Shown: in pieces, positions 19,084-44,823 of the stretch
Position numbering within the stretch: the stretch's first letter is position 1
Layout: each line of letters begins with the position of its first letter
Assembly (NCBI RefSeq): GCF_000746085.1
Contig: NZ_JQKO01000016.1
Coordinates: 1 to 64,000, forward strand
Length of the DNA: 64,000 bases
Source: Methylocapsa aurea
GTDB lineage: Bacteria; Pseudomonadota; Alphaproteobacteria; Rhizobiales; Beijerinckiaceae
Reading direction: 5' to 3'
Position numbers and translations under genes: made by a program
Notes under the pieces: model-generated
Told to the model about the DNA's origin: nothing
The model's input: the letters and a program-made list of their open reading frames with translations, nothing else
Database searches by the model: none

Positions 19084-19098
19084 GGCTTTTATATATGG

Positions 19099-19126
19099 TA
19101 ATGCGCATATGCGGTCAAGCGCATTA
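19099..19126. promoter_or_regulatory. ArsR operator
   Basis: TAATGCGC and GCGCATTA form an 8-bp inverted repeat with a 12-bp spacer, ending 16 bp upstream of the arsR start. ArsR proteins bind such A+T-flanked dyads over their own promoter; the A+T-rich stretch at 19085-19100 could be the -10 region. Confidence 0.6.
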
Positions 19127-19659
19127 TGTGAGAAGATCCACCGTCGGCTGTCTTCGGGTGGCGTAAGGCAGCCGACGCGTGGACGGGGCCACTCTGAACG
19201 GCGCTCTCGAAATGAGTCGGCGGATGTTGCTCCGGGAACCGCTCGCTCAGATTGATCGCTGGTTGACCCGTTTCGACAATAGTTCGGCGCTTGCTTTCGT
19301 TGGGAATATCGGTCGACGAGATAGCCGACGCGATCGCGGGCTAGGAGCGTCAACTTAATGGAACAGGCTCAGACCCCGTGTCCTTGACACATAACTCATG
19401 GTGCTGGTTGCCTCATCGAAGAACACCTCCACCTGCGGACGCATAATCTGCCCCCTCTCTCGGGGTGGCCACATAAATGCCGATTTCAGATCAAACCTTG
19501 CGCGGCGAATTCAAGCGCTTTGGCCTCATTCGTGCTTTCGTGCGCCAACGCGCTGAAATGAGTGAGAAACAAGAAATTGCTCAATGGTCCGGCTGGGTCG
19601 CAGCCCTGAAAATCAAATTCCTCAATTAGTCCGTCGAGACGGGTTCCGGCCTCACTCGG
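19127..19659. other. Gene-poor region between arsR and sox genes
   Basis: About 530 bp without a gene that I can support. Short frames occur but lack ribosome sites or family features. Near 19555 a 23-codon in-frame tail (MSEKQEIAQWSGW...) resembles a gene fragment. The region may be old insertion-sequence debris. Confidence 0.3.
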
Positions 19660-30156: not shown

Positions 30157-30354
30157 ATGAGCGACCATGCCGCGATGCCGAACAGCGAAACCTTCTGGGC
30201 GCGCATCGGGCGCCTCATCCGCCAGTTCGGAGAAGCAATGGACCTGGACGAGACCGCCCTGCTCGCCGCGCGCGTCGCCAGGCTCGAGCGAAAGCTTGCG
30301 GAGCTGAAAGACCAACAGGGTGATTCGCTTCCTCGTCCTGCAACTCAACCCTGA
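30157..30354 (+). CDS. Small coiled-coil hypothetical protein
   Basis: A 65-residue soluble protein; its C-terminal half (ALLAARVARLERKLAELKDQ) should form a coiled coil. ATG at 30157 follows AGGAGACAAGCCC, a strong ribosome site. It lies 121 bp before the RND adaptor gene and may share its transcript. I recognise no family. Confidence 0.6.
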   Translation: MSDHAAMPNSETFWARIGRLIRQFGEAMDLDETALLAARVARLERKLAELKDQQGDSLPRPATQP

Positions 30355-30475
30355 GGCGCCCGCCGATGCGCCAGCGGTTGCGCCGCTTCATGCGACGCAG
30401 ACGGCCGATCGAAGCCTCAGCAAGACATTCGCCCTGAGCGGATATTGCGCCCCTCCAGCACGAGCGAGATCACCC

Positions 30476-31561
30476 ATGGACAGCTTCGAGACAGTCCTTC
30501 TTGCCGCCGCTGTGATCGTCGCGGTCGGCGTTGGGGCGGCCGCGGCGGGCGAAAGAGATCCTCGTCAAGGACCGCAGCTTGTCCAAATCGCCATCGTGAA
30601 GCCGGCGGAGCCTTCGGAGCGGGCTTTTACCGGCGTCGTTTCGGCGCGTGTGCAAAGCAATCTGGGGTTTCGCGTTCCGGGCAAGGTGATCGAGCGCCTT
30701 GTCGACATTGGTCAAAACGTCCGCGCCGGGCGGCCGCTCCTGCGGCTCGACCAACAGGATCTCAATCTTGCGCTCGCCGCCAAGGAGCACGCGGTCGTGG
30801 CGGCGCGGGCGCTGGCCGTCCAAGCGACGGCCGACGAGGCGCGCTACCGCCAACTCGTGGCCAAGGGATACTCGACCCGCCAAAGATACGATCAGGCCAA
30901 GGCCGCGTTCGACAGCGCCAATGCGCAATTGGCGGCGGCCGAAGCACAGGCCGAGGTCGCGAGGAACGAGGCCGGGTACTCGTTGCTGCTCGCGGATGCC
31001 GACGGGACCATCGTCGAGACCTTGGCCGAGCCGGGGCAGGTGGTCGCCGCCGGTCAGACCGTGGTGAGGCTGGCGCATGCTGGTCCGCGCGAAGCCGCTG
31101 TGAATCTCCCCGAGGCCGTGCGCCCGGCGATCGGATCTGCCGCGCAAGCCAAGATTTACGGGGCCTCGTCCGCTGCTTCGCCGGCGCGTCTCCGTCAGCT
31201 TTCTGACGCCGCCGATCCCTCGAGCCGGACCTATGAGGCGCGCTATGTCCTTGAGGGCGAGGCTTCGCGGGCCCCGCTTGGCGCAACCGTCACCGTCGGG
31301 GTGGCGACGACCGGCGCGATCGACGCTTCGGAAGTCCCGCTCGGCGCGCTTTATGACGATGGCAAATCCACGGGCGTGTGGGTCGTCGATCCGGCGTCGT
31401 CGTCCGTCGCCTTCAGGCCCGTGCTGGTTCGCCGGCTGGCCGAGGAGACCGCTGTCGCCAGCGGCGTTCGCGCGGGCGAACGCGTCGTGGCGCTCGGCGC
31501 GCACCTTCTTCACCAGGGCGAGCGCGTCCGCATCGCCAATGACAGGATGGCGGCGCAATGA
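30476..31561 (+). CDS. RND efflux periplasmic adaptor (HlyD/MFP family)
   Basis: A 361-residue membrane-fusion protein. An N-terminal hydrophobic segment (LLAAAVIVAVGVGAAAAG) anchors it, followed by the barrel-sandwich halves (GFRVPGKVIERLVDIGQNVRAGRPLLRLD; and DGTIVETLAEPGQVVAAGQTVVRL, both longer than shown here by domain), a helical hairpin of about 70 residues, and a beta-barrel with LGATVTVGV. It links the inner-membrane pump to an outer channel. ATG at 30476 is chosen; the frame is open to 30320. It overlaps the pump gene by four bases. Confidence 0.88.
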   Translation: MDSFETVLLAAAVIVAVGVGAAAAGERDPRQGPQLVQIAIVKPAEPSERAFTGVVSARVQSNLGFRVPGKVIERLVDIGQNVRAGRPLLRLDQQDLNLALAAKEHAVVAARALAVQATADEARYRQLVAKGYSTRQRYDQAKAAFDSANAQLAAAEAQAEVARNEAGYSLLLADADGTIVETLAEPGQVVAAGQTVVRLAHAGPREAAVNLPEAVRPAIGSAAQAKIYGASSAASPARLRQLSDAADPSSRTYEARYVLEGEASRAPLGATVTVGVATTGAIDASEVPLGALYDDGKSTGVWVVDPASSSVAFRPVLVRRLAEETAVASGVRAGERVVALGAHLLHQGERVRIANDRMAAQ

Positions 31562-34500
31562 GCCGCTTCAACCTTTCCGCGCTGGCGGTGCGCGAGCGCG
31601 CCGTCACCCTCTTCTTGATTCTCGCCGTCGCGATCTCCGGAACCTATGCATTTTTGAAGCTCGGCCGCGCCGAGGATCCGTCGTTCACCATCAAGGTGCT
31701 GACGGTGACGACGGTCTGGCCCGGCGCCACCGCGCGGGAAATGCAGGATCTCGTCGCTGAGCCGCTGGAGAAGCGGCTGCAGGAGCTGCGCTGGTATGAC
31801 CGCGTCGAGACGATGACCCGTCCGGGTCTTGCCTTCATGACGCTCACCTTGAAGGACAGCACGCCGCCGGCCGAGGTTCCCGAGCAGTTCTACCAGGCTC
31901 GCAAGAAGCTCGGCGACGAAGCCCGCACCTTGCCCGCGGGCGCCTTCGGTCCCTTCGTCAACGATGAATATTCGGACGTGACTTTCGCCCTTTACGCCCT
32001 GAAGGCGCCGGGCATGGCGCCGCGTCTGCTCGCCCGCCAGGCGGAGACAATGCGCCAGCAATTGCTGCATGTCCCTGGCGTCAAAAAGGTGAACATTTTG
32101 GGCGAGCGGCCGGAGCGGATCTTCGTCGAGTTCACCTATGCGCGCCTCGTCACACTCGGCGTCAGCGCGCGGGACGTCTTCGCCGCGCTCGCGCGCCAGA
32201 ACGCCGTGACGCCAGCGGGATCGATCGACGCCAAGGGACCGCAAATCTTCGTGCGCCTCGATGGCGCCTATGACGATATCCGGAAGATCGCCGACACGCC
32301 CATCGTGGCCGGAGGGCGCAATCTCAAGCTCTCCGACGTCGCCGAGGTGCGCAGGGGCTATGAGGACCCGGCAACCTTCCTGATCCGTCACCAGGGCGAG
32401 CCGGCCCTCGCCCTCGGCGTCGTTATGCAGGAGGGATGGAACGGGCTCGACCTCGGCAAGGCGCTCGAGGCCGAAACCAAGGCGATTTCCGTCAACCTGC
32501 CGCTTGGGATAACCCTGACCAAGATCACGGATCAGGCGGTCAACATCTCAGAGGCCGTCGATGAGTTCATGTTCAAGTTCTTCGTCGCCCTCAGCGTCGT
32601 GCTCGTCATCAGCCTGATCAGCCTCGGCTGGCGCGTCGGCATCGTCGTGGCGGCGGCGGTGCCGCTGACCCTTGCCGTGGTGTTCGTCATCATGCTCGAC
32701 ACCGGACGGGTGTTCGACCGCATCACGCTCGGCGCCCTCATCCTCGCCCTTGGCCTTCTCGTCGACGACGCCATTATCGCGATCGAGGCGATGGTGGTGA
32801 AGCTGGAGGAGGGCATGGGCCGCATCGAAGCGGCCGCCTATGCCTGGAGCCACACCGCGGCGCCCATGTTGGCGGGCACTCTTGTCACCGTGGCCGGCTT
32901 CCTGCCGGTTGGCATTGCGCGCTCCAGCGCGGGCGAATATGCCGGCAACATCTTTTGGATCTTGGGTTTCGCCCTGATCGCCTCCTGGTTCGTAGCCGTG
33001 GCGTTTACACCTTACCTGGGGGTGAAGCTGCTGCCCGAGATCGAGCCGATCGAGGGCGGTCACGAGGCGATCTACGGCACGCCCAATTACCGGCGCCTCC
33101 GCAGCGTGATCGCCTGGTCCATTCGCCACAAAATCGTTGTTGCGGGCGCCGTGGCCGGCGCCTTGGCGATCTCCGGCGCAGGCTTGGGCGGAGTAAAGAA
33201 GCAATTCTTCCCGACATCGGATCGTCCCGAGCTTCTGGTTGAGGTCCAGCTGCCTGAGGGCAGCAGCATCGAGGCGACCAGCGCCGCCACAGCCAAGGTG
33301 GAGGCATGGCTGAAAGAGCAGCCTGAAGCCAAGATCGTCACCAGCTATATCGGCCAGGGCGCGCCGCGATTCTTCTTCGCCTATAACCCGGAGCTGCCCG
33401 ATCCGTCCTTCGCCAAGATCGTCGTCCTGACGCCAGATGCCGAGGCGCGGGAAGCTCTCAAAGTCCGCCTGCGGGCGGCGATCGCCGAAGGCCTCGCTCC
33501 CGAGGCGCGCCTTCGCGTCACTCAGCTCGTGTTCGGTCCCTATTCCCCCTTTCCCGTAGCGTTCCGGGTCATGGGTCCTGATCCCGCCGTGCTGCTCGGC
33601 CTCGCCGGCGAGGTCCAGGAGGTAATGCGCGCCAATCCGAACATGCGGCAGGCGAACCAAGACTGGGGTCAACGGTCGCCGACTGTCCGGTTCGTCCTCG
33701 ATCAGGATCGGCTGCGGCTGATTGGTCTCTCGCCCAGCGAAGCCGCGCAACAGCTGCAATTCCTGCTGACGGGCGTGACGGTCACGCAGGTGCGCGAGGA
33801 TATCCGCACGGTGGACGTGGTCGCCCGCAGCTCCGGCTCGGGCCGTCTCGATCCCGCCCGCCTCGCCGACTTCACTCTCACATCAAATGATGGGCGCATG
33901 ATCCCGCTCGATCAGATCGGCCAGATCAATGTGCGGATGGAGGATCCGATCCTCAAGCGCCGCGATCGCACACCGACGATCACCGTGCGCGGCGACATCG
34001 ACGAAACCCTTCAGCCGCCGGAGGTCTCGACCGAGATCCAGGAGGCCCTCCAGCCGATGATGGCCAATCTGCCCGCGGGTCACCGGATCGAGATGGGCGG
34101 TTCGATCGAAGAGTCGGTCAAGGCGAACACAGCTCTTGCCGCCATCTTCCCGCTCATGCTGGCCTCGATGCTCACGATCATCATGCTTCAGGTCCGCTCC
34201 TTCTCGGCCATGACCATGGTGATGCTCACAGCGCCCCTCGGTCTCGTCGGCGCGGTCCCTGTCCTGTTGCTGTTCCACCAGCCCTTCGGCTTCAACGCCA
34301 TCCTCGGCCTGATCGGTCTGGCGGGGATCTTGATGCGCAACACGCTGATCCTGATCGGGCAGATCCATACCAACGAGGAGCATGGCCTCGATCCCTACCA
34401 CGCAGTCCTCGAGGCCACGGTCCAGCGGGCGCGGCCCGTGATCCTCACCGCGCTCGCCGCCGTTCTGGCGTTCATCCCGCTGACTCATTCCGTGTTCTGG

Positions 34501-34770
34501 GGATCCATGGCCTATACGCTGATCGGCGGCACCGCCGTCGGCACGGTTCTGATCTTGGTCTTCCTGCCGGCGCTATACGCCATCTGGTTCAGAGTGACGC
34601 CAGCTGCGGCGGAATTCGCCGGAGCGGAACAGCCGCCGCAAAACGACATGCCGCTCGAGGCAAGCGCTTCGGCTCCAAACGCGACAGCGTCCGACGCCGG
34701 GGCGGATTGGCCGACGTCGTGGACTGCGGAAACGACTTATCAGGAGGTGCGTGAATTGGACGCTACTTAG
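31558..34770 (+). CDS. RND-family efflux pump
   Basis: A 1070-residue HAE-type RND transporter. TM1 is followed by a large porter loop, then TM2-TM6 (VVLVISLISLGWRVGIVV; LGALILALGLLVDDAIIAIEAM with the TM4 Asp pair for proton relay), a second porter loop and TM8-TM12 (GLAGILMRNTLILIGQI). It uses the proton gradient to expel drugs, solvents or metals; the substrate is unknown. The last 50 residues form a polar tail. No outer-membrane factor gene follows. Confidence 0.92.
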   Translation: MSRFNLSALAVRERAVTLFLILAVAISGTYAFLKLGRAEDPSFTIKVLTVTTVWPGATAREMQDLVAEPLEKRLQELRWYDRVETMTRPGLAFMTLTLKDSTPPAEVPEQFYQARKKLGDEARTLPAGAFGPFVNDEYSDVTFALYALKAPGMAPRLLARQAETMRQQLLHVPGVKKVNILGERPERIFVEFTYARLVTLGVSARDVFAALARQNAVTPAGSIDAKGPQIFVRLDGAYDDIRKIADTPIVAGGRNLKLSDVAEVRRGYEDPATFLIRHQGEPALALGVVMQEGWNGLDLGKALEAETKAISVNLPLGITLTKITDQAVNISEAVDEFMFKFFVALSVVLVISLISLGWRVGIVVAAAVPLTLAVVFVIMLDTGRVFDRITLGALILALGLLVDDAIIAIEAMVVKLEEGMGRIEAAAYAWSHTAAPMLAGTLVTVAGFLPVGIARSSAGEYAGNIFWILGFALIASWFVAVAFTPYLGVKLLPEIEPIEGGHEAIYGTPNYRRLRSVIAWSIRHKIVVAGAVAGALAISGAGLGGVKKQFFPTSDRPELLVEVQLPEGSSIEATSAATAKVEAWLKEQPEAKIVTSYIGQGAPRFFFAYNPELPDPSFAKIVVLTPDAEAREALKVRLRAAIAEGLAPEARLRVTQLVFGPYSPFPVAFRVMGPDPAVLLGLAGEVQEVMRANPNMRQANQDWGQRSPTVRFVLDQDRLRLIGLSPSEAAQQLQFLLTGVTVTQVREDIRTVDVVARSSGSGRLDPARLADFTLTSNDGRMIPLDQIGQINVRMEDPILKRRDRTPTITVRGDIDETLQPPEVSTEIQEALQPMMANLPAGHRIEMGGSIEESVKANTALAAIFPLMLASMLTIIMLQVRSFSAMTMVMLTAPLGLVGAVPVLLLFHQPFGFNAILGLIGLAGILMRNTLILIGQIHTNEEHGLDPYHAVLEATVQRARPVILTALAAVLAFIPLTHSVFWGSMAYTLIGGTAVGTVLILVFLPALYAIWFRVTPAAAEFAGAEQPPQNDMPLEASASAPNATASDAGADWPTSWTAETTYQEVRELDAT

Positions 34771-34957: not shown

Positions 34958-35611
34958 TCACGCACGAATCGGGCGCCAACGCAGGAGCAGCCTGCCAAAG
35001 CAGCAGCCGACGGTTGTCAACAGCATGACGCTGCCGAACTGCCAGACAAGCACCATCAAGCTCGCATCCTGCGGGTGAAACAGCCTGAGCCCGACGTTGC
35101 CGAGGGCTGCTGCCGCCAGTGCTGCGAGCGCGACTGTGGCGCGGGGCAAGAGGGGCGCGCCACGCCGAATCATCACGGTGATCGCGATGGCGGGAACGGC
35201 GCCGGTTAAGGCGATCGCCGGCAGACACATCCAGTCGGGTTGGAGCGTCAGGCCTTCAGGCCCCAGGCTCAGCCAGTTTGAAAGGCACCCCTGACCCAGG
35301 CTGCCGAGCCATAGGGCGAGTGGCGCAAGCGGCAGAAGCAGTGGCCAACGTGGACGCCCCGGCACGCCAGCCGAAAAAGCGGCGAATGCCGCCGTCAGGG
35401 CGGTGACGACTGCCGCGCCCTGTTCCAGAAGGTAACGGCTTTCGCCGAGCTTTTCGATCAAATCAGGGCGCGGCGACATCACCGCGACCATAATCATGAC
35501 GGAAGGCGCGGCGATGCCGAGCCACAGGACGAGACGTCGCAGCGGCGGGGGCAGCCGCCGCACGGGCGTCGTCTGATCGGACAGGCGTTGGATCAAGACG
35601 TTGGTTCTCAT
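34958..35611 (-). CDS. nrsF: NrsF-type anti-sigma factor (DUF1109)
   Basis: A 217-residue inner-membrane protein with six hydrophobic segments. The family hallmark Cys residues are visible: LGQGCLSNWL, PDWMCLPAI and VGCCFGRLL; in Caulobacter NrsF such Cys sense chromate or cadmium and release SigF. The start overlaps the sigma gene stop (ATGA at 35608), the usual sigF-nrsF arrangement. The metal response is family knowledge. Confidence 0.88.
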   Translation of the reverse strand: MRTNVLIQRLSDQTTPVRRLPPPLRRLVLWLGIAAPSVMIMVAVMSPRPDLIEKLGESRYLLEQGAAVVTALTAAFAAFSAGVPGRPRWPLLLPLAPLALWLGSLGQGCLSNWLSLGPEGLTLQPDWMCLPAIALTGAVPAIAITVMIRRGAPLLPRATVALAALAAAALGNVGLRLFHPQDASLMVLVWQFGSVMLLTTVGCCFGRLLLRWRPIRA

Positions 35612-36177
35612 CCTTGCCTCTCTTCGCCTAGGGCCGCACGCAGGGCCTTGAGCGCCCGGTGCATCGCGACTTTCAAGGCGGCGACGCTCTGGCCGCTCGC
35701 AGCCGAGGCGCCCTTGAGCGACATTTCCTGCAGCTTCAGCATTTCGACCGCCTGCCTCTGCCCAACCGGCAGTTTGGCGATGGCCTCGCGCAACGACTGC
35801 ACGTCGCCCGGACCTTCATCGAGATAATTCGGCTCATGCGCGGAAAAGGTTTCCGGCCATTCGTCGACATTCACCTCGTTCCTCACCTTGCGGACGTAGC
35901 GACGCGCGTTGTCCGCCATCCTGTGGCGGGCGATCGCCATCAGCCAGGGCGTGAACGGGCGCTGCGGATCATAGGTGTGGCGGACGGAATGCATGGATAG
36001 GAGAACGTCCTGAACGAGATCCTCGATGCCCTCGAACCGGCCCCAGCGCCGCCCAATAGCGCCGCGAATAAACGGGGCGAGCTCGAAGAGAAGACTGTGG
36101 TAGGCGGCGCGATCGCCCTGTTGCGCCGCACGCATCAAGCCCACCCATCGCGCCTCGCGGCTATTCACCTTTTCCAC
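35608..36177 (-). CDS. sigF: ECF sigma factor (SigF-like, paired with NrsF)
   Basis: A 189-residue ECF sigma factor. Region 2 has EGIEDLVQDVLLSMHSVRHTYDP and PFTPWLMAIARHRMADNARR (as separate blocks within about 50-95), and region 4 has LPVGQRQAVEMLKLQEMSLKG with a helix-turn-helix after it. I choose GTG at 36177 because GGGAGAG lies six bases upstream and the length is normal; the open frame reaches an ATG at 36306 without a ribosome site. Its promoter matches GTAACC-N16-CGAA, so it should be autoregulated. The regulon seen here is described in the findings. Confidence 0.88.
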   Translation of the reverse strand: MEKVNSREARWVGLMRAAQQGDRAAYHSLLFELAPFIRGAIGRRWGRFEGIEDLVQDVLLSMHSVRHTYDPQRPFTPWLMAIARHRMADNARRYVRKVRNEVNVDEWPETFSAHEPNYLDEGPGDVQSLREAIAKLPVGQRQAVEMLKLQEMSLKGASAASGQSVAALKVAMHRALKALRAALGEERQG

Positions 36178-36387
36178 CTGCGACTCTCCCGAAGACGATC
36201 GCAGAGTGACGTCGACCGCAACGGCGCGCAATCGGTCATTTTCGAGAGTGGAGGGTCGTCGAGGCTGTCGGACATGTGGATGAATCAAATAAAGCTCTAT
36301 TTGCATGGGGTGTTCGCCTCACGCCAAATAGGCGATGGATTGCCAATTCATGCCCGTTCGCTCCTGTCGGCGGCGTCCCGGGAGTTG

Positions 36388-36413
36388 TTCGCCGCGACGA
36401 CCGGAAAGGTTAC
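36388..36413 (-). promoter_or_regulatory. SigF-type promoter of the sigma-nrsF operon
   Basis: On the minus strand GTAACC (36413-36408) is followed after exactly 16 bases by CGAA (36391-36388). This equals the GTAACC-N16-CGAA motif described for SigF targets in Caulobacter. It lies about 210 bp upstream of the chosen sigma start and 80 bp upstream of the alternative start. Confidence 0.75.
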
Positions 36414-36438
36414 AGTCTCGAATAAATTTTCGGCTGGC

Positions 36439-36464
36439 GTAACCTTTTCCGAAGTCCCGGCGAA
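36439..36464 (+). promoter_or_regulatory. SigF-type promoter of the radical SAM operon
   Basis: GTAACC (36439-36444), 16 bases, CGAA (36461-36464), 32 bp before the radical SAM ATG. It is divergent from and 25 bp away from the sigma operon promoter. Confidence 0.78.
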
Positions 36465-36495
36465 GTTCCGTATAGGAAAGGCGAGGATCATTCTG

Positions 36496-37530
36496 ATGCG
36501 TTTCAGCAAGATGCAGGATCTGGCGACTGCCCAACCGATGACGGGCGGCGCGCATCCCGCGATCGAAGCCGCCGCTTGGCCCGGCGTCGCGCGCCCGCTG
36601 CCGCCTCGCGCCAAATTCAGCGATCCCGAATTCACCGCCAAAGGCGAGCGGCGCGCCAGCGTCTCCCTCAGCCGGCTGGAGACCTTGTGGTTCAACACCG
36701 GCACGTTATGCAATCTCACCTGTCACAATTGTTACATCGAGTCCTCCCCCCGGAATGATCGTCTCGCCTATCTCACCCGCGACGAAGTGCTCGGCATCCT
36801 CGACGAGGCCGCGACTCTGACGCCTCCGCCGATCGAGATCGGCTTCACCGGGGGCGAGCCTTTCTTGAACCCCGATTGCCTCGGCATGATCGAGGACAGC
36901 CTGGCGGGCGGCTATCGGGTCCTGGTTCTGACCAATGCGATGAAGCCCATGCAGCGCCTGAAGGCGGTCCTGCTGAACCTCAATGCGCGGTTTCCGGGCA
37001 AGCTGACATTGCGGGTTTCCCTCGACCATTACGAGGCGGCCGGTCACGAGAAACTGCGTGGCCGGCGCTCTTGGCGAACGGCCATCGACGGGTTGGTTTG
37101 GCTTGCCGCAAACCGTTTCAATCTCGCGATTGCCGCCCGCATGGCATGGAATGAGACCGATGCCGCTACGCGCGCTGGCTTTCGCGCGCTCTTTGACGAC
37201 ATCGGCCTCGAGATCGACGCGGATGATCCGACCCGTCTTGTGCTGTTCCCGGAGATGGACGCCGGGGAAGAAGCGCCGGAAATCAGCGAAGCCTGCTGGA
37301 CCATTCTCGGCAAATCGCCCGATCAGATGATGTGCGCCAGCTCGCGCATGGTGGAAAAGCGCAAGGGCGCCGCGCGGCCGGTGGTCACCGCCTGCACGCT
37401 GCTGCCTTACGACCCGCAATTCGAGATGGGAGCGACCTTGGCCGCGGCGGCGCGGCCGGTCAAGCTCAACCATAACCATTGTGCTCGCTTCTGCGTCCTG
37501 GGCGGCGCCTCCTGCAACCCACAAAAATAA
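36496..37530 (+). CDS. Radical SAM protein of the SigF-controlled operon
   Basis: A 344-residue radical SAM enzyme. The [4Fe-4S] motif is CNLTCHNC (near residue 73), followed by GFTGGEPFLNPD (SAM-binding GGE). The C-terminus carries further Cys (VVTACTLLPYDP; HNHCARFCVLGGASCNPQK) that may hold an auxiliary cluster. It differs from the ArsS type (CNxACxHCHV). It heads a tight six-gene operon with a flavin oxidoreductase, TVP38 protein, two transferases and a carboxymuconolactone-decarboxylase-like protein. The product is unknown; arsenic or selenium/sulfur organics are possible. ATG at 36496 is preceded by GCGAGGATC. Confidence 0.82.
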   Translation: MRFSKMQDLATAQPMTGGAHPAIEAAAWPGVARPLPPRAKFSDPEFTAKGERRASVSLSRLETLWFNTGTLCNLTCHNCYIESSPRNDRLAYLTRDEVLGILDEAATLTPPPIEIGFTGGEPFLNPDCLGMIEDSLAGGYRVLVLTNAMKPMQRLKAVLLNLNARFPGKLTLRVSLDHYEAAGHEKLRGRRSWRTAIDGLVWLAANRFNLAIAARMAWNETDAATRAGFRALFDDIGLEIDADDPTRLVLFPEMDAGEEAPEISEACWTILGKSPDQMMCASSRMVEKRKGAARPVVTACTLLPYDPQFEMGATLAAAARPVKLNHNHCARFCVLGGASCNPQK

Positions 37531-37537
37531 GGCGCCC

Positions 37538-38965
37538 ATGACCGACGCGATCACCGTGGATATCTGTATCATCGGCGCCGGTTCGGCCGGTCTGTCGGTT
37601 GCTGCGGGGGCCGCGCGCATGGGGGCGCGCACCGTGCTCATCGAGGCCGGGCGCATGGGCGGCGACTGCCTGAACACCGGCTGCGTGCCGTCGAAATCCC
37701 TGTTGGCCGCCGCCAAGGCGATGCAAGCAATCCGCGCCGCACGGCGTTTCGGCGCCGACGGTCTCGAGCCGCGCATCGATTTCGCCGCCGTGTCCCGCCG
37801 CGTCCACGACGTCATCGAGACCATCGCGCCGCACGATTCCGTTGAAAGGTTCACGAGGCTCGGGTGCAAGGTCATTCAGGCGCATGGCCGCTTCATCGAC
37901 CCCGGCGCGGTTGAGGCCGGCGGGCAGCTTGTGCGCGCGCGGCGTTTCGTCGTCGCCACGGGCAGCCGCGCCGCCGCCCCAGCCATTCCAGGGCTCGGCG
38001 GCGTTCCCTATTTCACCAACGAGACTTTGTTCGACAACATTGTCTTGCCAAACCATCTCGTGGTCATCGGCGCCGGGCCCGTTGGCTGCGAAATGGCGCA
38101 GGCGCATCGTCGGCTCGGCGCGAGAGTGACCTTGCTCGACCTTGGCCCGATGCTGCCGAAGGACGATCCCGAGGCGGTGGCGGTGGTGCGCAAAAGCTTC
38201 GCCACTGAGGGCATTGCCGCCTTCGAAGGGGTTACGATCCTGCGCGTCGAAAGGAGCCAAGGCGGCATTGTCGTGGCTTTGCGGGAAGGGGACGGCGAAC
38301 GCTTGATCGAGGGTTCGCATCTGCTGATCGCCGCCGGCCGCCGGCCCAATGTCGAAAACCTCGGCCTCGATGCCGCAGGGGTCAGGTTCGGCCCCAAGGG
38401 CATCGAGGTGGACGCGCGCCTCCGCAGCAGCAACAAGCGCATTTTCGCCGCCGGCGATGTGGCGGGCTCCTATCAGTTCACTCACTTGGCCGGCTATCAC
38501 GCCGCGATCGTGCTGAAAAACGCCTTGTTCCGCTTGCCAGCCAAAGCAGATACGCGGGCTCTACCATGGGTGACATTCACCGATCCGGAACTGGCTCAAG
38601 TGGGCCTGACGGAGGCGCAGGCGCGAGAACGCCATGGCGATCGTTTCCGTGTGCTTCGGTCGGATTTCGCGGACAATGATCGGGCCCAGGCCGAGGGCGT
38701 CGTCGAGGGTTTCCTCAAGGCGATGGTGACAAGACGCGGCCACGTGCTGGGGGCCACGATCGTCGGCCCCCACGCGGGGGAGCTGATTCAGAGCTGGGTC
38801 CTCGCCGTCGGTCTCGGCCTCAAGATCGGCGCTCTCGCCGGGATGATCGCGCCTTATCCGACGCTCGGCGAAATCAGCAAGCGGGCGGCCGGCTGCTTCT
38901 ACGCGCCGACGCTGTTTTCACCGCGCATGCGCCGGCTGGTGCGCGTCTTGGGGATGTTTGGATGA
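37538..38965 (+). CDS. FAD-dependent pyridine nucleotide-disulfide oxidoreductase (MerA/Lpd-like)
   Basis: A 475-residue flavoprotein. It has the FAD-binding IIGAGSAGLSVA, the redox disulfide GGDCLNTGCVPSKSLL, the NAD(P)H site VVIGAGPVGCEMAQ, the AAGDVAG motif and a C-terminal dimerisation domain (HAGELIQSWVLAVGLGL). It lacks the N-terminal heavy-metal domain and the C-terminal Cys pair of true mercuric reductases. It belongs to the group that occurs beside TVP38 proteins. ATG at 37538 is 7 bp after the radical SAM stop. Substrate unknown. Confidence 0.88.
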   Translation: MTDAITVDICIIGAGSAGLSVAAGAARMGARTVLIEAGRMGGDCLNTGCVPSKSLLAAAKAMQAIRAARRFGADGLEPRIDFAAVSRRVHDVIETIAPHDSVERFTRLGCKVIQAHGRFIDPGAVEAGGQLVRARRFVVATGSRAAAPAIPGLGGVPYFTNETLFDNIVLPNHLVVIGAGPVGCEMAQAHRRLGARVTLLDLGPMLPKDDPEAVAVVRKSFATEGIAAFEGVTILRVERSQGGIVVALREGDGERLIEGSHLLIAAGRRPNVENLGLDAAGVRFGPKGIEVDARLRSSNKRIFAAGDVAGSYQFTHLAGYHAAIVLKNALFRLPAKADTRALPWVTFTDPELAQVGLTEAQARERHGDRFRVLRSDFADNDRAQAEGVVEGFLKAMVTRRGHVLGATIVGPHAGELIQSWVLAVGLGLKIGALAGMIAPYPTLGEISKRAAGCFYAPTLFSPRMRRLVRVLGMFG

Positions 38966-39657
38966 GTCTCGAGCGCGTGCTGCCCTTGCTGGCGCTGGTT
39001 GGTCTTGCCGCCGTTGCCTATGCCTTGCATCTGGAGCGTTTCCTGACCCTGGACGCCTTGCGCGACAACCGCTCCCTGCTGCTGGCGTTCGTCTCCGCCC
39101 ATCGCGTGGGCGCTGCGCTGGTCTTTGTCGTCATTTATATCGGGGTGGTCGCCCTATCGCTGCCGGGCGCGACGATCATGACCCTTGGCGGCGGCTTCCT
39201 GTTCGGCGTCGGCGCGGGAGCGGCGCTGAGCGTCGTCGGCGCCACCTGCGGCGCCGCGGCTCTCTTTCTCATCGCCCGTTCGGCCTTAGGCGAGCTGTTG
39301 CGCCGGCGCGCTGGTCCGTTCCTCGCGCGCATGGCGGATGGCTTTCGCCACGACGCTTTCCATTACCTCCTGTTTCTGCGCCTGGTTCCGGCCTTCCCGT
39401 TCTTCGCGGTCAATCTGGCCGCGGCATTGCTCGGCATGCCGATGGCGTCTTTCGTCGCCGCGACAGCTATAGGCATCCTTCCAGCTGCGCTGATTTTCGC
39501 CGCCTTCGGCGCCGGCCTCGGGCGCATCTTCGACGCCGGCGGCGACGTCGATCTGAAGGATATCCTCAACCCAACCCTGATCGCCGGTTTGATCGGACTG
39601 GGTTTTCTCGCTTTGCTCCCGGTCATTGTGAAACGGATGCGGGAGAACAGGCCATGA
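38962..39657 (+). CDS. TVP38/TMEM64 (DedA-like) membrane protein
   Basis: A 231-residue inner-membrane protein with five or six hydrophobic segments and the VTT-domain features: SLPGATIMTLGGGFLFG, FLRLVPAFPFFAVNLAAALLG (the F/YLRL-P-FPFF block) and GILPAALIFAAFGAGLG. Members are linked to lipid or metal transport and often accompany MerA-like reductases. It overlaps both neighbours by four bases. Confidence 0.87.
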   Translation: MSLERVLPLLALVGLAAVAYALHLERFLTLDALRDNRSLLLAFVSAHRVGAALVFVVIYIGVVALSLPGATIMTLGGGFLFGVGAGAALSVVGATCGAAALFLIARSALGELLRRRAGPFLARMADGFRHDAFHYLLFLRLVPAFPFFAVNLAAALLGMPMASFVAATAIGILPAALIFAAFGAGLGRIFDAGGDVDLKDILNPTLIAGLIGLGFLALLPVIVKRMRENRP

Positions 39658-40319
39658 GCCTGTCGGTCATCATCCCGACGCTGAATGCCGCTGGATCGCT
39701 GCCCGGGACGCTGGCGCGGCTCGATGGAGTCGACGAAGTGATTGTGGTTGATGGCGGGTCCGCCGACGGCACAGTGGAGCTTGCCAGCCGGTTGGGCGCG
39801 CGGGCAATGGCTGCGCCAAGGGGGCGCGGCCGGCAGTTGATGGCGGGAGCCGAGGCGGCCCTTGGCGATTGGCTGCTCCTTCTCCATGCGGACACGCGAT
39901 TGGACCCCGGCTGGAGGGCCGCCGTCGAAACCTTCCGCGTCGATCCGGCGAACCGGAGCAAAGCCGCCGTGTTCCTCTTCGCGCTCGACGATCCGTCGAC
40001 TGAAGCAAGGCGATTGGAGCGGCTGGTCGCATGGCGCGTGCGGTGGATGGGGTTGCCCTATGGCGACCAGGGCTTGCTGATCAGCCGCGATTTCTACCGG
40101 AGCTTAGGCGGGTTTCGCCCGCTTCCGCTGATGGAGGACGTCGATCTGGTGCGCCGGATCGGCCGCCGGCGGCTCGTGATCCTGCCGGTCGCGGCGCGCA
40201 CTTCGGCGGCGCGATGGCGGCGCGACGGCTGGATCAGGCGCAGCCTGCGCAATCTCGTTTGCCTTGCCTTGTATTTTCTCGGCGCGCCGCCGCGCCTGAT
40301 CCAGCGACTTTACGGCTGA
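39654..40319 (+). CDS. Family 2 glycosyltransferase (rSAM/selenodomain-associated transferase 2)
   Basis: A 221-residue GT-A enzyme: SVIIPTLNAAGSLPGTLARL, the nucleotide-sugar site IVVDGGSADGT, DTRLDPGW (DxD-like) and late MEDVDLVRRIG. This is the transferase 2 family regularly found beside a transferase 1 (DUF2064) gene and a radical SAM protein in arsenosugar-type clusters. It overlaps the TVP38 stop by four bases and lies 2 bp before the next start. Confidence 0.86.
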   Translation: MSLSVIIPTLNAAGSLPGTLARLDGVDEVIVVDGGSADGTVELASRLGARAMAAPRGRGRQLMAGAEAALGDWLLLLHADTRLDPGWRAAVETFRVDPANRSKAAVFLFALDDPSTEARRLERLVAWRVRWMGLPYGDQGLLISRDFYRSLGGFRPLPLMEDVDLVRRIGRRRLVILPVAARTSAARWRRDGWIRRSLRNLVCLALYFLGAPPRLIQRLYG

Positions 40320-40321
40320 CC

Positions 40322-40930
40322 ATGTCCCTTCGCCGCCATCTCGTCATCTTCACACGCTGCCCACGCTACGGCGCCGGGAAGCGCCGCCTCGCCGCTGGAA
40401 TAGGGCCGGTGCAGGCGCTGCGGTTCCAGCGGGTGACATTGTCATTGATGCTTCGCCGCCTCGGCGCCGATCCGCGCTGGACCACCTGGCTCGCGGTGAC
40501 GCCAGACCGTTCGGGGCCATGGCCGCCGCGTTTCGGCGTTCTGCCGCAGGGCCAGGGCGATCTTGGCCAGCGCATGGCGCGGGTCGCCAAGGTTCTGCCG
40601 CCGGGGCCGGTGCTGATCGTCGGCGGCGATATTCCGGGCATAGGCGCCGCCGCGGTTGCGCGTGGGTTCCGGGCCTTGGGCGACCATGACGCCGTCTTCG
40701 GCCCCGCAACCGATGGGGGATATTGGGCGGTCGGTCTTCGCCGCCGCCCGCGCTTCCTCGATCCCTTCGAGAAGGTTCGATGGTCCACCGAACATGCCTT
40801 GGCCGATAGTTTGGCCAATCTTTCGGGGCGCTCGGTCGCGAGCCTCGAGGTTCTGGAGGACGTCGATGATGTCGAATCCCTCGCCCGCCAATCCCCATGG
40901 GAGTTCCTCCATGCGCGCCGTCGAAGCTAA
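40322..40930 (+). CDS. DUF2064 glycosyltransferase (rSAM/selenodomain-associated transferase 1)
   Basis: A 202-residue protein of the TIGR04282/DUF2064 family: HLVIFTRCPRYGAGKRRLA at the start, GQGDLGQRMARV, LIVGGDIPGI and FGPATDGGYWAVGLRR. It should be a nucleotidyl- or glycosyltransferase; family members occur with ArsM/ArsS in arsenosugar synthesis. It overlaps the next gene by 20 bp. Confidence 0.86.
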   Translation: MSLRRHLVIFTRCPRYGAGKRRLAAGIGPVQALRFQRVTLSLMLRRLGADPRWTTWLAVTPDRSGPWPPRFGVLPQGQGDLGQRMARVAKVLPPGPVLIVGGDIPGIGAAAVARGFRALGDHDAVFGPATDGGYWAVGLRRRPRFLDPFEKVRWSTEHALADSLANLSGRSVASLEVLEDVDDVESLARQSPWEFLHARRRS

Positions 40931-41477
40931 GCCGCTTGCCTCCTATCCCTGGTTCGTCCGGCTGTTCTTCTGGAAGCAGAAACGCACCTACGGCCGCGTC
41001 CTCGACCCCGGCCTGCTTTGGGGCCGCTCGCCTTGGGTCTTTGCGGCGGTGGCCCTTCTCTATGGCGCATTGGACCGGCGCTCATCGCCTTTGCCGCCGG
41101 CGCTGCGATCGCTGATTACCGTGCGGGTGTCGCAGATCAATCATTGCGCCTTCTGCGTCGATATCAATTCCGCGACGCTGCTCAAACGCGGCGTGGCGAT
41201 GGACAGGATCGACGCCCTGGCGACATGGCGCGAAAGCTCGGCTTTCACCCCCGAGGAACGTCTTGCGCTGGACTACGCCGAGGCGATGACAATCACCGCG
41301 CCAGGGGTCGGCGACGACCTGCGGCGGCGCCTGAAAGAATGTTGGGAGAATGATTTCATCGTCGAACTGACGGGGTTGATCGCTTTCCAGAATCTATCGT
41401 CGAAGTTCAACGCCGCGCTCGACGTGCCGTCGCAGGGGTTTTGCCGCCTTCCAAACGGACGTCCATCCAAGGTTTGA
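40911..41477 (+). CDS. Carboxymuconolactone-decarboxylase-family protein of the rSAM operon
   Basis: A 188-residue AhpD-like protein with the CxxC motif of the family (NHCAFCVDINSA) and a helical core. Family members are peroxidase-like or act as thiol redox partners. It is the last gene of the SigF-controlled operon, starts inside the DUF2064 gene after a GGGAG site, and probably supports the redox step of the pathway. Confidence 0.85.
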   Translation: MRAVEAKPLASYPWFVRLFFWKQKRTYGRVLDPGLLWGRSPWVFAAVALLYGALDRRSSPLPPALRSLITVRVSQINHCAFCVDINSATLLKRGVAMDRIDALATWRESSAFTPEERLALDYAEAMTITAPGVGDDLRRRLKECWENDFIVELTGLIAFQNLSSKFNAALDVPSQGFCRLPNGRPSKV

Positions 41478-41578
41478 TGAGCATTGCCTCTTTAGCGGGC
41501 TGCGGAGAAAGCGTGGACGCAATGGTCGATAAACTCGCTTGGTGCGGCGGTCAGCGAATTTCTTCTTGGAGCCAGGGC

Positions 41579-42217
41579 ATGCCTGCGCGAACCCCAGCCT
41601 TTAAGTCGCCGGCAACGGTCATCGAACGAGAGGCCTCCAGGCGCGCCGTCCTGACAGGGCTCGGCTCCATCCTCGGTTTGGCCGCTGGAACCGGTCAGGC
41701 GCTTCCCGCGGGCGTCGATCCGCCGCCGTTCCAGACGAGGGTTGCGCAGTTCATAGTCTTCGAGCCGGCGCTCGCCGCTCCAGCTATCCGGCTTGAGCGG
41801 ATCGACGGCAAGCTGATCGATCTCGCGGGATTTCGCGGCAAGGCCGTTCTCGTGAACTTCTGGGCGACCTGGTGCCCGCCCTGCAGGCGAGAGCTGCCGC
41901 TCCTCGCCGAACTTCAAGAGATCGTTCGCTCGGAGCCGCTCGAAATCGTCGCCATCTCGATCGACAAGGAAGGAAGCCGGGCGGTGCAGCCTTTTTTGGA
42001 GCGCCTCAACATCAAGCGTCTGCGGCCATATCTCGACCCCAGAGGACAAATAGCAAAAGGCATCGGCGACAATGGACCCGCGCCCTTCGTCCTGTACGGT
42101 CTGCCGATCTCCTACATCATCGACCGAGACGGCTGCGTCGCCGGCTATCTGGTCGGCGAGGCGGACTGGACATCGTCGACGGGACGGGCTTTGCTTCGAT
42201 ATTATACGATGGGGTAG
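41579..42217 (+). CDS. TlpA-like exported thioredoxin
   Basis: A 212-residue protein with a twin-Arg-like signal (ASRRAVLTGLGSILGLAAG) and a thioredoxin domain of the TlpA/ResA type: VNFWATWCPPCRRELP (active site WCPPC) and the late GLPISYIIDRDG with cis-Pro. It should reduce disulfides in the periplasm. ATG at 41579 follows GGAGCCAGGGC. It is 101 bp after the rSAM operon and may belong to it. Confidence 0.87.
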   Translation: MPARTPAFKSPATVIEREASRRAVLTGLGSILGLAAGTGQALPAGVDPPPFQTRVAQFIVFEPALAAPAIRLERIDGKLIDLAGFRGKAVLVNFWATWCPPCRRELPLLAELQEIVRSEPLEIVAISIDKEGSRAVQPFLERLNIKRLRPYLDPRGQIAKGIGDNGPAPFVLYGLPISYIIDRDGCVAGYLVGEADWTSSTGRALLRYYTMG

Positions 42218-42265
42218 CCTTGGGGTCTGATCTTTCGTGGCGCCGCCCGAAACCGGGATGCCTCC

Positions 42266-43051
42266 TCACCCGGCGCTAAGCCCTAGCCTCACCAGCTGTT
42301 CATCAAGCGCGTGGATGTGATCGGCGAGTGAGACGGCTATGATCGACGTGACCTCGAGCCGGCGGTCTTCCAGGACGAAAGTCTCCGGATGGTCTTTTGC
42401 CCAGGCTGCAACTGCTCGGTCGCGTTCGTAAAGAAGCGCCTCGATCTGCGGTCGGAAGAGCCGAATCATCCCCGTGATCCAGCGATTGGCTGGCGTGTCC
42501 GGCGAGCTCATCGCAAAATGAGCGAGCGCTGCGATGACGTCGGCCGCCGGATGCCAGGTTTCGTTCGTCACCCAACGATTCGTCGTGAACAGGGCGAGCG
42601 GTTGCCCAAAAGGATTCATCACGATGCCCACAAGATGAACGAGATCCGCGGTGCTCGGGTTCTGATCAAGCGGATCCATTTCGAGGGGCTCGGACCGCTG
42701 GACCGCGCCCTTGTCGAGAAAAAGATGAAAATGGCCGTGCTCGGACGCCAACCGGCCGGGGCCTGCATGCGCATGATAGAAATATCGGCTGGACTGCATC
42801 GCATCGCGGGCGTCATCCGCTGGATAATGGGCCCATTCCACAAAGCCATCACCTGAGATTGCCAGCAGATCCGCGACGACCTGGGAGCCGCGCGCGGCTA
42901 GCTCGGCCATCGTTTGGACGACAACCCCGGCGGCCGAAGCCATCATCTGCAGCTGCTCCATCGAAGGCATTCCCACGAGGGCGGTCCGCGGCTGCGCAAT
43001 CCCGACATCGTTACAAGACGGAATCGATGCGCCAACGTCTTCAAAAGCCAT
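42266..43051 (-). CDS. DUF6969-family protein
   Basis: A 261-residue protein with a His-rich core HYPADDARD... YFYHAHAGPGRLASEHGHFHLFL (HxHA and EHGHFHLF), which looks like a metal site and matches the DUF6969 pattern as I remember it. No signal peptide. It lies 66 bp after the NPC-repeat gene, same strand, with a strong hairpin between, and is therefore probably in the same SigF-controlled transcript. Function unknown; the His cluster next to a Cys-repeat peptide suggests metal-dependent processing or sensing. Confidence 0.65.
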   Translation of the reverse strand: MAFEDVGASIPSCNDVGIAQPRTALVGMPSMEQLQMMASAAGVVVQTMAELAARGSQVVADLLAISGDGFVEWAHYPADDARDAMQSSRYFYHAHAGPGRLASEHGHFHLFLDKGAVQRSEPLEMDPLDQNPSTADLVHLVGIVMNPFGQPLALFTTNRWVTNETWHPAADVIAALAHFAMSSPDTPANRWITGMIRLFRPQIEALLYERDRAVAAWAKDHPETFVLEDRRLEVTSIIAVSLADHIHALDEQLVRLGLSAG

Positions 43052-43069
43052 CGTTTAGCTTCCTTACAA

Positions 43070-43106
43070 CGCCGACACTGTCGGTTCGGGCTCGACAGTG
43101 TCGGCG
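43070..43106 (-). terminator. 14-bp hairpin between NPC-repeat gene and DUF6969 gene
   Basis: CGCCGACACTGTCG and CGACAGTGTCGGCG form a perfect 14-bp stem with a 9-nt loop. There is no long U-run after it on the minus strand (only TTGTAAGG), so it may be an attenuator or mRNA-stabilising hairpin that lowers expression of DUF6969 relative to the peptide. Confidence 0.55.
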
Positions 43107-43117
43107 TCAGTCGAAAA

Positions 43118-43339
43118 TTATCTCTTCGGAGCGCAGGGGTTCGACTTGTCCGCACGCGGCTTTGATTTAGCGGCGCAAGGATTTGATCTGACCGCACAAG
43201 GATTTGATTTTGCTGAACAAGGATTACGCTTTGCCGAACAGGGGTTTGCTTGAGCAAGCTCAATGGCTGGGGTGGCGGCCTGCGCCGCCGCGACCGCGGC
43301 GGTTGCAAGAGAAAGGGCGGCGAGAGTTTCTTTCAACAT
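43118..43339 (-). CDS. Exported peptide with six NPCxAK heptad repeats
   Basis: A 73-residue secreted protein. A Sec signal (LAALSLATAAVAAAQA) precedes six 7-residue units: NPCSAKR, NPCSAKS, NPCAVRS, NPCAAKS, KPRADKS (degenerate, no Cys) and NPCAPKR. Five Cys and many Lys/Arg suggest metal or thiophilic metalloid binding, or a precursor peptide that is modified. ATG at 43339 follows AGGAAAACTCTT. A SigF-type promoter stands upstream. I know no characterised homologue. Confidence 0.75.
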   Translation of the reverse strand: MLKETLAALSLATAAVAAAQAATPAIELAQANPCSAKRNPCSAKSNPCAVRSNPCAAKSKPRADKSNPCAPKR

Positions 43340-43508
43340 AAGAGTTTTCCTGTAGGAGTTGGCGATGTTCCATCCGACAAAACGCCGACCGGTCGCAAGC
43401 GGGGTCTGTCGAGGCGGCCGGTCGTTACAACGATTTGCGTTTTTGCTCTCGCTGGCTTGCCGTAGGGGACATACAACCGTCGCCACGATGATGACGGCCG
43501 AACTGATA

Positions 43509-43534
43509 TTCGTTTTGGGCGGAGCCCAGGTTAC
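43509..43534 (-). promoter_or_regulatory. SigF-type promoter of the NPC-repeat gene
   Basis: Minus strand GTAACC (43534-43529), 16 bases, CGAA (43512-43509), about 170 bp upstream of the peptide start. The long leader is unusual but the match is exact, including spacing. Confidence 0.7.
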
Positions 43535-43695
43535 GATGCGCCTCAAAAAAATCTCGGGTGGGAGCAATGAGCGGGCTGCTCAATGCCCCTTATCGGGCTG
43601 CGCCACCGGAACATCATCACTCTTCCACTGAGGCCAAACGGCCGCGCGGGAGAACCTGTCGTCGGAAAAATTCCTTTGGACGGCCTTGCCGAGAT

Positions 43696-43721
43696 GTAAC
43701 CATTAGTCTGCGTACGACGAA
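43696..43721 (+). promoter_or_regulatory. SigF-type promoter of arsM
   Basis: GTAACC (43696-43701), 16 bases, CGAA (43718-43721), 40 bp before the arsM start. It is an exact match in sequence and spacing to the three other copies. Confidence 0.78.
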
Positions 43722-43761
43722 CCTCCCTTGCGCGAGCGAGGGAATCGCTAGGGAGATCGCT

Positions 43762-44823
43762 GTGAACGATATGAGCCTCGAGAATGTCCGCGACTATTAT
43801 GGCAAGGTGCTTGGGACCTCGCAGGATCTGCGCACAGACGCCTGCGCGACCGCCGAGCCTCCTTCTCTTCGCGTGCGCCAGGCGCTCGGCCGCGTCCATG
43901 AGGAGGTGAAGGCGCGGTATTTCGGCTGCGGGTTGCTCGTTCCTCCGGCGCTCGAGGGCGCGAGGATCCTCGACCTCGGCTGCGGCTCGGGCCAGGACTG
44001 CTACGTCCTGGCGCAATTCGCCGGCCCGGCCGGCCGCGTCGTTGGCGTCGATGCGACGCCCGAGCAACTCGCCATAGCGCGCCGGCACGTCGAGTCGCAT
44101 CGCCAGCTGTTCGGATTTTCGCAGTCCACGGTGGATTTCATCGACGGCGATATCGCCCGCCTCGACGAGTTGGGTTTCGAGCCGAACAGTTTCGACGTGA
44201 TCGTTTCCAACTGCGTGATCAATCTCGTCGAAGACAAGGGGGCCGTGTTCGCGGCGGCGCACCGGCTGCTGAAGCCCGGCGGCGAGTTCTACTTTTCGGA
44301 CGTTTACGCCGATCGTCGCGTCCCAAGGGAACTCCGCCAGGATTCGGTGCTGCATGGCGAGTGCCTCGCCGGCGCTCTTTATTGGGGCGACTTCATGATG
44401 CTCGCCAAGGCCGCCGGCTTCCTCGACACGCGCCTGGCGTCGGATCGGCCGTTGGCCGTGGGAGACCCGGAAATCGCCGCCAAGGTCGCGCCGATCCGCT
44501 TTTTCTCGGCAACCTATCGGCTGTTCAAGCTCGCGGGGCTGGAGCCCGCCTGCGAAGACTACGGCCAAGCGGTGCGTTACCGTGGCGGCATTCCCGACGC
44601 CGAACAAATTTTCCGGTTCGACAAGCATCATCGCATCGAGGCGGGGCGCATGTTCCCAGTCTGCGGCAACACCTGGCGGATGCTAAAGGAAAGCCGGCTC
44701 GCCGCACATTTCGACTTCTTTGGCGACTTTACACGGCACTATGGGATCTTCGCCGATTGTGGACTGGCCGCGCCGTTCTCCGATCCCATCGAGGCTACCA
44801 GATCGGTTAGCGCCTGTTGCTGA
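43762..44823 (+). CDS. arsM: Arsenite S-adenosylmethionine methyltransferase (ArsM-like)
   Basis: A 353-residue methyltransferase. SAM motif I is ILDLGCGSGQDCYVLAQ, with GVDATPEQL and VSNCVINLVEDK (motif with the conserved arsenic-binding Cys). Other arsenic Cys are in LRTDACATAEPP (near residue 27) and ARYFGCGLLVP. The ArsM C-terminal domain is present and the tail ends SACC. The GTG at 43762 follows GGGAGA by five bases and sits before MSLENVRDYYG. ArsM methylates As(III). A SigF-type promoter ties it to the sigma-NrsF pair. Confidence 0.9.
   Translation: MNDMSLENVRDYYGKVLGTSQDLRTDACATAEPPSLRVRQALGRVHEEVKARYFGCGLLVPPALEGARILDLGCGSGQDCYVLAQFAGPAGRVVGVDATPEQLAIARRHVESHRQLFGFSQSTVDFIDGDIARLDELGFEPNSFDVIVSNCVINLVEDKGAVFAAAHRLLKPGGEFYFSDVYADRRVPRELRQDSVLHGECLAGALYWGDFMMLAKAAGFLDTRLASDRPLAVGDPEIAAKVAPIRFFSATYRLFKLAGLEPACEDYGQAVRYRGGIPDAEQIFRFDKHHRIEAGRMFPVCGNTWRMLKESRLAAHFDFFGDFTRHYGIFADCGLAAPFSDPIEATRSVSACC

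Follow-up and report, generated by a model that had tools for sequence, protein, structure and literature searches.

Bacterial arsenic genes are usually thought to be under the control of ArsR repressors. A 64,000-base stretch of the Methylocapsa aurea genome (contig NZ_JQKO01000016.1, positions 1 to 64,000; hereafter the window) raises the question of whether such genes might also answer to a sigma factor held at the membrane. It encodes an As(III) methyltransferase (ArsM) and an operon headed by a radical S-adenosylmethionine (SAM) protein, together with an extracytoplasmic function (ECF) sigma factor of the ECF16/SigF type and its NrsF-family anti-sigma factor, and copies of a single motif, GTAACC-N16-CGAA, stand before all of these units. 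We consider it likely that this sigma factor, with its NrsF partner, drives four transcription units from the motif, and that arsenic detoxification is the probable outcome.

The promoter motif in the window

A scan of the window recovered the four exact copies that an earlier note on this DNA had listed, arranged as it had described in two divergent pairs. The expected number was 0.04, and none of 100 shuffles reached four. The sites, all exact matches, are predicted to serve the following units:

36388..36413, minus strand: SigF-type promoter of the sigma-nrsF unit (GTAACCTTTCCGGTCGTCGCGGCGAA)
36439..36464, plus strand: SigF-type promoter of the radical SAM operon
43509..43534, minus strand: SigF-type promoter of the NPC peptide/DUF6969 unit
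43696..43721, plus strand: SigF-type promoter of arsM

The claim that the window holds no further copy was likewise borne out, there being no other GTAACN-N16-CGAA anywhere in its 64,000 bases; when the spacer was varied from N10 to N23, the four matches at N16 were joined by single matches at N11 and N21. The genome-wide scan that had been proposed as a check (3.97 Mb) gave 11 exact copies versus 8 for a reversed control pattern, so that the copies outside the window are at chance level. Six of these seven outside copies fall within open reading frames (ORFs) of at least about 215 codons, and one, on contig C17, is intergenic. Because the same mechanical ORF calling also covers all four window sites by way of over-long starts, it is a weak test of ORF-internal copies, and we placed weight on the density of the motif rather than on ORF position: at the control density the Poisson chance of four copies in 7.3 kb is ~2e-9, a post hoc figure. 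The C17 copy (L010), which lies beside a polysaccharide-export-like ORF, and one of the ORF-internal copies, on C20 (L011), which sits 49 nt ahead of the next ORF in the same direction, were both counted as chance occurrences and not as members of the regulon. A relaxed pattern, G[AT]AACC-N16-CGAA, gave 37 matches in the core loci defined below, but its copies inside sigF, which fall at a conserved peptide (window position 35828; also L221-L224 and L234), resemble coding coincidence, and for this reason we relied on the exact motif. That the four window sequences resemble the motif merely by chance has a negligible probability: the seven other copies in the genome, near the reversed-control level, speak for it, but both the window expectation and the recurrence of the same motif with the same spacing in related clusters speak against it.

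The motif itself is not new, being identical to the SigF motif of Caulobacter crescentus (Kohler 2012, PMC3511200). According to that paper, the Caulobacter sigF promoter was mapped by primer extension and two target promoters by rapid amplification of 5' cDNA ends (5'RACE), while a third was recognized by pattern. Passages of the Brucella study (PMC8315932) quote the ECF16 consensus as (T/C)GTAAC-N17-CGAA and give GTAAC...CGAA for the BcrS promoters. As described in these sources, the Caulobacter SigF-NrsF system (PMC3511200, PMC8224329) shares with the window the SigF-type sigma, the NrsF-family anti-sigma factor and GTAACC-N16-CGAA, and directs them, on Cr, Cd and Cu, to DUF2282-DUF692-DUF2063 (bufferin) operons and a YedY/MsrP-like gene. 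The Brucella BcrS-AbcS system (PMC8315932) also shares an ECF16 sigma, an NrsF-family anti-sigma factor and GTAAC...CGAA promoters, but differs in that its targets are the hypochlorous acid (HOCl)-resistance genes bcrXQP. In the window, unlike in Caulobacter, the predicted targets are arsM, the radical SAM cluster and the gene of the NPC peptide, and NrsF is without the second conserved Cys. Its genes are as follows:

34958..35611, minus strand: NrsF-family membrane anti-sigma factor, Cys129 kept, residue 179 His (PF06532, 107 bits)
35608..36306, minus strand: ECF16/SigF-type sigma factor, start perhaps further downstream (Pfam Sigma70_r2 and r4_2; tree)
36496..37530, plus strand: radical SAM protein, CxxxCxxC and six conserved C-terminal Cys (PF04055)
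37538..38965, plus strand: MerA-like FAD/NAD(P) disulfide oxidoreductase (profile matches)
38962..39657, plus strand: VTT/TVP38-type membrane protein (PF09335)
39654..40319, plus strand: TIGR04283 "arsenosugar biosynthesis" glycosyltransferase (214 bits, above the cutoff of 182)
40322..40930, plus strand: TIGR04282-like glycosyltransferase (DUF2064; 127 bits, below the cutoff of 134; PF09837)
40911..41477, plus strand: CMD/AhpD-like protein (PF02627)
41579..42217, plus strand: TlpA-like thioredoxin-fold protein, probably of the radical SAM operon, judging from position
42266..43051, minus strand: DUF6969 protein, second gene behind the 43509 promoter (PF22308, 225 bits)
43118..43339, minus strand: NPC-repeat peptide, N-terminus like a signal peptide by eye (ORF list; like peptides in L025, L034 and DUF6969 loci)
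43762..44823, plus strand: arsM, As(III) S-adenosylmethionine methyltransferase (phmmer: 5evj, 330 bits; 4fr0, 270 bits)

The sigma factor has sigma-70 regions 2 and 4 as its sole Pfam domains, the adjacent NrsF/DUF1109 anti-sigma factor lies well above the family cutoff of 26.8 bits, and the window carries the GTAAC...CGAA promoters typical of ECF16/SigF-NrsF systems. As relatives of the sigma align only from around residue 48 or later of the 232-residue ORF, its start may lie downstream of 36306. Next to nrsF, at 30320-34770, lie efflux genes of the HlyD and AcrB types, without the motif.

The probable arsenic-linked target genes

The ArsM assignment is secure from sequence comparison, the match to the solved ArsM 5evj being near full length (residues 5-331 of 350). 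With the NrsF match, it supports the earlier proposal of an ECF/NrsF regulon that takes in arsM and the radical SAM operon. The pathway encoded by this operon had been called unknown; its radical SAM character stands, with a refined likely start at 36496, the CxxxCxxC motif and six further Cys that are conserved in 97-98 of 98 aligned rows, but the arsenosugar-type TIGR04283 glycosyltransferase, above its cutoff, makes an organoarsenical pathway probable. Among solved structures there was no useful match for the radical SAM protein, and its chemistry is deduced from the neighbouring genes. The ArsM-ArsS arsenosugar pathway (Synechocystis, as cited in a passage of PMC8552651) likewise combines ArsM with a radical SAM enzyme; unlike ArsS, the window protein falls far below the ArsS cutoff and is partnered by MerA-like, VTT and TIGR04283 proteins. 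On a Roseomonas plasmid (L299), a relative has as its neighbours phosphonate-type ABC transporter genes and the genes of a TIGR04282 protein and another radical SAM protein.

A scan with the radical SAM protein returned 80 loci, 17 of which also have a strong MerA-like match (>400 bits) and constitute the core loci (323 kb in all, the other 63 loci amounting to 912 kb and including some short contigs). At N16 the core loci contain 18 copies of the exact motif, compared with 5 at N15, 3 at N17 and 0-1 at each remaining spacing from 10 to 23, and the 63 loci without the core yielded a single exact match at N16. The 18 matches are spread over 9 of the 17 core loci, which are not fully independent (two come from one Afipia genome, and L021 and L033 are close). 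Upstream of the radical SAM gene itself, the exact motif is found in L025 and GAAACC-N16-CGAA in L012, L013, L014, L019 and L041.

A search for arsM covered 15 genomes, from which 16 of the 17 core loci (all but L039) come, and gave 10 copies scoring at least 350 bits, in seven of these genomes. Half of the copies, from four genomes, belong to a sigF-nrsF-arsM run (L221-L224, L234). Two more (L219, L220) lie ~40 nt behind an exact motif, which in longer stretches is covered by a mechanical ORF for L219 (L237) and uncovered for L220 (L241); a further two follow a radical SAM gene (L225, and the L014 copy as judged from its coordinates), and one (L235) has neither sigma nor motif across 17 kb. 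Taken together, the conservation of the motif with the cluster and that of arsM with sigF-nrsF make the proposal that this SigF/NrsF branch is wired to arsenic methylation and an arsenosugar-like cluster one that is well supported by comparison.

Several observations weigh against this proposal. The exact motif is absent from 8 of the 17 core loci, and L019 possesses sigF, nrsF and the cluster, yet no GTAACN-N16-CGAA; similarly, 8 of the 15 core genomes have only distant arsM-like genes, with best matches below 85 bits. The radical SAM protein scores 50 bits against the ArsS model TIGR04167, whose curated cutoff of 300 it thus misses, and the suggestion of arsenosugar synthesis draws on family names. 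The window NrsF reaches 24.5 bits against the 300-bit cutoff of the NrsF equivalog NF042994 and, while retaining Cys129, has His179 in place of the second conserved Cys. Moreover, among the seven radical-SAM loci with GTAACC-type sigmas discussed below, the sense-strand motif before sigF occurs in the window alone, and we rejected it as a conserved trait of the relatives. Finally, by mechanical ORF calling, 9 of the 18 core matches fall within ORFs of 100 codons or longer and the other 9 do not; in G+C-rich DNA such calls tend to be too long (at least one match-covering ORF runs across the homology-found DUF6969 gene in L025), and this even split, which neither supports nor refutes the proposal, was given little weight.

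A different division of labor is conceivable, in which ArsR runs the arsenic-responsive expression while oxidative or copper stress is the main trigger of the SigF-type promoters. The window does encode a separate arsenic unit, an arsR-type regulator with an ArsP permease (PF03773, 232 bits), at 17723-19353 on the minus strand, without the motif and ~16 kb from the regulon; moreover, known ECF16 systems respond to Cr, Cd, Cu or HOCl. On the other hand, this regulator, ~15.9 kb away, is the nearest to the regulon of the 6 PF01022 matches in the genome (one ArsR model was used, and ArsR can act at a distance), and the sigF-nrsF-arsM runs tie the sigma to arsM. We consider this alternative unlikely. 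The five other genomes of the genus in the sample each have one NrsF and no radical SAM match, and of 149 genomes of the family (its own included) 90 have an NrsF and 11 a close relative of the radical SAM protein (E < 1e-90); from this distribution the arsenic-linked SigF/NrsF copy looks like an accessory addition.

The third promoter had been assigned to the NPC-repeat gene. The promoter is indeed there, but it leads a pair and not this gene alone, the NPC peptide being followed 66 bases on by DUF6969. Of 385 genomes of the class, 90 encode DUF6969, as do 3 of the 149 from the family, and an NPC-repeat ORF occurs within ~1.5 kb of it in 15 of 33 loci (by a simple pattern, with the window included and the frame in L248 doubtful). 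Of 56 DUF6969 rows, four are preceded by GTAACN-N15-17-CGAA: the window and L025 with the exact motif, L024 with GTAACT, and L041 at N15. The other 52, some of which are overlapping stretches of one gene, have no such site. These patterns point to a wider recurrent pair in the class, mostly without this promoter, that was drawn into the regulon. That the NPC peptide binds arsenic is a guess. In L025 (from 15368) and L034 (3373-4254), NPC repeats are fused to CxxCH segments that by eye are like those of c-type cytochromes.

An alternative is that the co-regulated NPC-repeat peptide, and not arsenic, is the substrate of the radical SAM protein, which would mature it as in pathways for ribosomally synthesized and post-translationally modified peptides. 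Its six conserved C-terminal Cys besides CxxxCxxC could hold auxiliary clusters, and NPC proteins are found near it in the window, L025 and L034. However, the NPC pattern was recovered in just 3 of 81 radical-SAM loci (many being short contigs), radical SAM genes occur within ~1.5 kb of DUF6969 in none of the 33 loci (in the window itself the gene is further off), and what recurs with it in the core loci is glycosyltransferases, MerA-like and VTT proteins, with a phosphonate-type ABC transporter in Roseomonas. We regard peptide maturation as decidedly improbable and retain an organoarsenical pathway as the probable function of the operon.

A second SigF/NrsF pair and the sixth -35 base

Another SigF/NrsF pair is encoded elsewhere in the genome, next to a divergent bufferin operon:

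7083-11584 of contig C1 (L113): bufferin-type operon accompanied by a SigF/NrsF pair and GTAACG promoters

This operon comprises two DUF2282 peptides, an MbnB-like DUF692 protein (PF05114, 338 bits), DUF2063 and DoxX; the DUF692 (MNIO) and DUF2282 bufferin genes have no match in the window. The C1 locus shares its protein families and a divergent promoter pair with the window, but both of its promoters read GTAACG-N16-CGAA and its NrsF has both Cys129 and Cys179. Two SigF/NrsF loci, L021 and L033 (Afipia, Acidiphilium), contain both bufferin-type genes and the radical-SAM cluster, and in them the motif stands before a DUF2282-like gene.

We read the sixth -35 base from G[AT]AACN-N16-CGAA sites at most 500 bases upstream of the sigma gene in 94 sigma-nrsF loci (90 different sequences), of which 68 could be labelled. 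In the 64-row clade that includes the C1 sigma, all 53 labelled rows have G or A, whereas on the other side of the sigma tree 13 of 15 have C; on a quick tree the base requires 3 changes versus 12.1 in shuffles, none of 500 shuffles being as low. The window sigma belongs to a 19-row clade (support 99) made up of seven radical-SAM-cluster loci plus bufferin-linked loci, and since this clade holds both, sigma ancestry and target do not coincide. In three genomes (G110, G117, G137; five stretches) the radical SAM/MerA-like cluster lies within ~16 kb of a C1-type sigma, and there the sites are 13 GTAACG, 1 GTAACA and no GTAACC, as against 18 GTAACC and 1 GTAACG in the seven C-type radical-SAM loci, window included (2x2 test with the single GTAACA left out, p 4e-8; post hoc, and the sites are not independent). 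At position 216 in region 4 of the sigma, which we take to lie in the recognition helix, all 13 C rows have Lys, and 53 of the 55 G/A rows have Arg. The remaining two, with Lys, are G-labelled rows outside the C1-type clade (L169, L201) and count against the Lys/Arg link, which may reflect one deep split of the tree. Hence, the sixth -35 base largely follows sigma ancestry and the Lys/Arg position, and on this ground the two circuits may be insulated; the pattern fits insulation through a base-residue contact but may be ancestry.

The four window promoters might instead be served, partly or wholly, by the C1 SigF, with both pairs forming one common metal-stress regulon. Both sigmas are SigF-type with NrsF partners, and the ECF16 consensus as quoted in PMC8315932 ends at GTAAC, leaving the sixth base free. 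We give this little credence in view of the GTAACG on both C1 promoters, the uniform G or A in labelled rows of the C1-type clade against the prevalent C on the other side, and the lack of GTAACC in the radical-SAM clusters near C1-type sigmas.

The earlier note had also described the NrsF as metal-sensing. Its family membership holds, but sensing by the window protein is unproven, the proposed signal-sensing Cys being a His. The Caulobacter and Brucella NrsF proteins have two Cys (C131/C181 and C129/C179, respectively), the second of which, Cys179, the relevant passage of the Brucella paper (PMC8315932) takes as the likely direct detector; the window NrsF departs from this pattern. The C1 NrsF, whose Cys numbering is identical to that of the Brucella protein, was used as the guide for these positions, the Caulobacter NrsF itself being absent from the alignment. 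Across 106 aligned rows (96 different) the first Cys is present in all, while the second position has 73 Cys, 31 His, 1 Phe and 1 gap. In fourteen further rows examined, the NrsF is associated with arsM or with the radical-SAM core: 13 of these have His (L221 and L222 among them repeat L019 and L025, and the L029 and L030 sigmas are not on the tree), and the remaining one, L152, has Cys and a sigma of the C1 type. We ruled out His as a mark of arsenic-linked systems alone, as it is also found in the bufferin-linked L157, L147 and L197 of the same clade, with Phe in L158; the Cys-to-His change thus marks the clade.

A further-reaching reading, to which we give somewhat below even odds, is that of two SigF/NrsF circuits separated by one -35 base: GTAACC with an arsenic-linked sigma bearing Lys, and GTAACG/A with a bufferin-linked sigma bearing Arg in the region 4 recognition helix. 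The arsenic-linked clade would have altered its sensor (the second NrsF Cys to His, plus an added Cys elsewhere), so that a switch for copper-peptide stress would have been rebuilt and, in this branch, redirected to organoarsenicals. Both sigma types would have captured the radical-SAM cluster, with the promoter letter matching the sigma in either case.

A proposed arsenic response from the envelope

From the motif, the gene families and the conservation described above we infer that the sigma uses these promoters, as well as its likely signal, the products and the role of the peptide. The putative NrsF-family anti-sigma factor would hold the window sigma at the membrane until envelope stress, most likely arsenicals or other thiol-reactive stress, frees it. 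The freed sigma would then transcribe its own operon along with the radical SAM operon, the NPC peptide/DUF6969 pair and arsM. ArsM would methylate As(III), and from the methylated arsenic the radical SAM protein and the glycosyltransferases may make an arsenosugar-like product; in the periplasm, the metalloid may be bound by the NPC peptide.

Neither the arsenic targets nor the two-circuit split was found in print in the open-access literature, in which our searches found nothing on arsenosugars and radical SAM enzymes with a sigma factor, on an arsenosugar gene cluster with ArsS and ArsM, or on an ECF sigma with arsM. For arsM with an anti-sigma factor they gave two Cupriavidus papers, neither of which names NrsF in the relevant passages. 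In one of them (PMC9045368), arsM of Cupriavidus metallidurans is reported to be under non-RpoD control, unlike the neighbouring ars operon, in a passage that names no SigF or NrsF.

If our proposal is correct, cells would answer arsenic from the envelope too, with arsM and an organoarsenical cluster controlled by a sigma/anti-sigma switch at the membrane. The radical SAM/MerA-like/glycosyltransferase cluster, which is poorly understood, would thereby gain a testable context, and the GTAACC/GTAACG pair would offer a natural case for how paralogous sigma factors may avoid cross-talk by way of one base and one residue.

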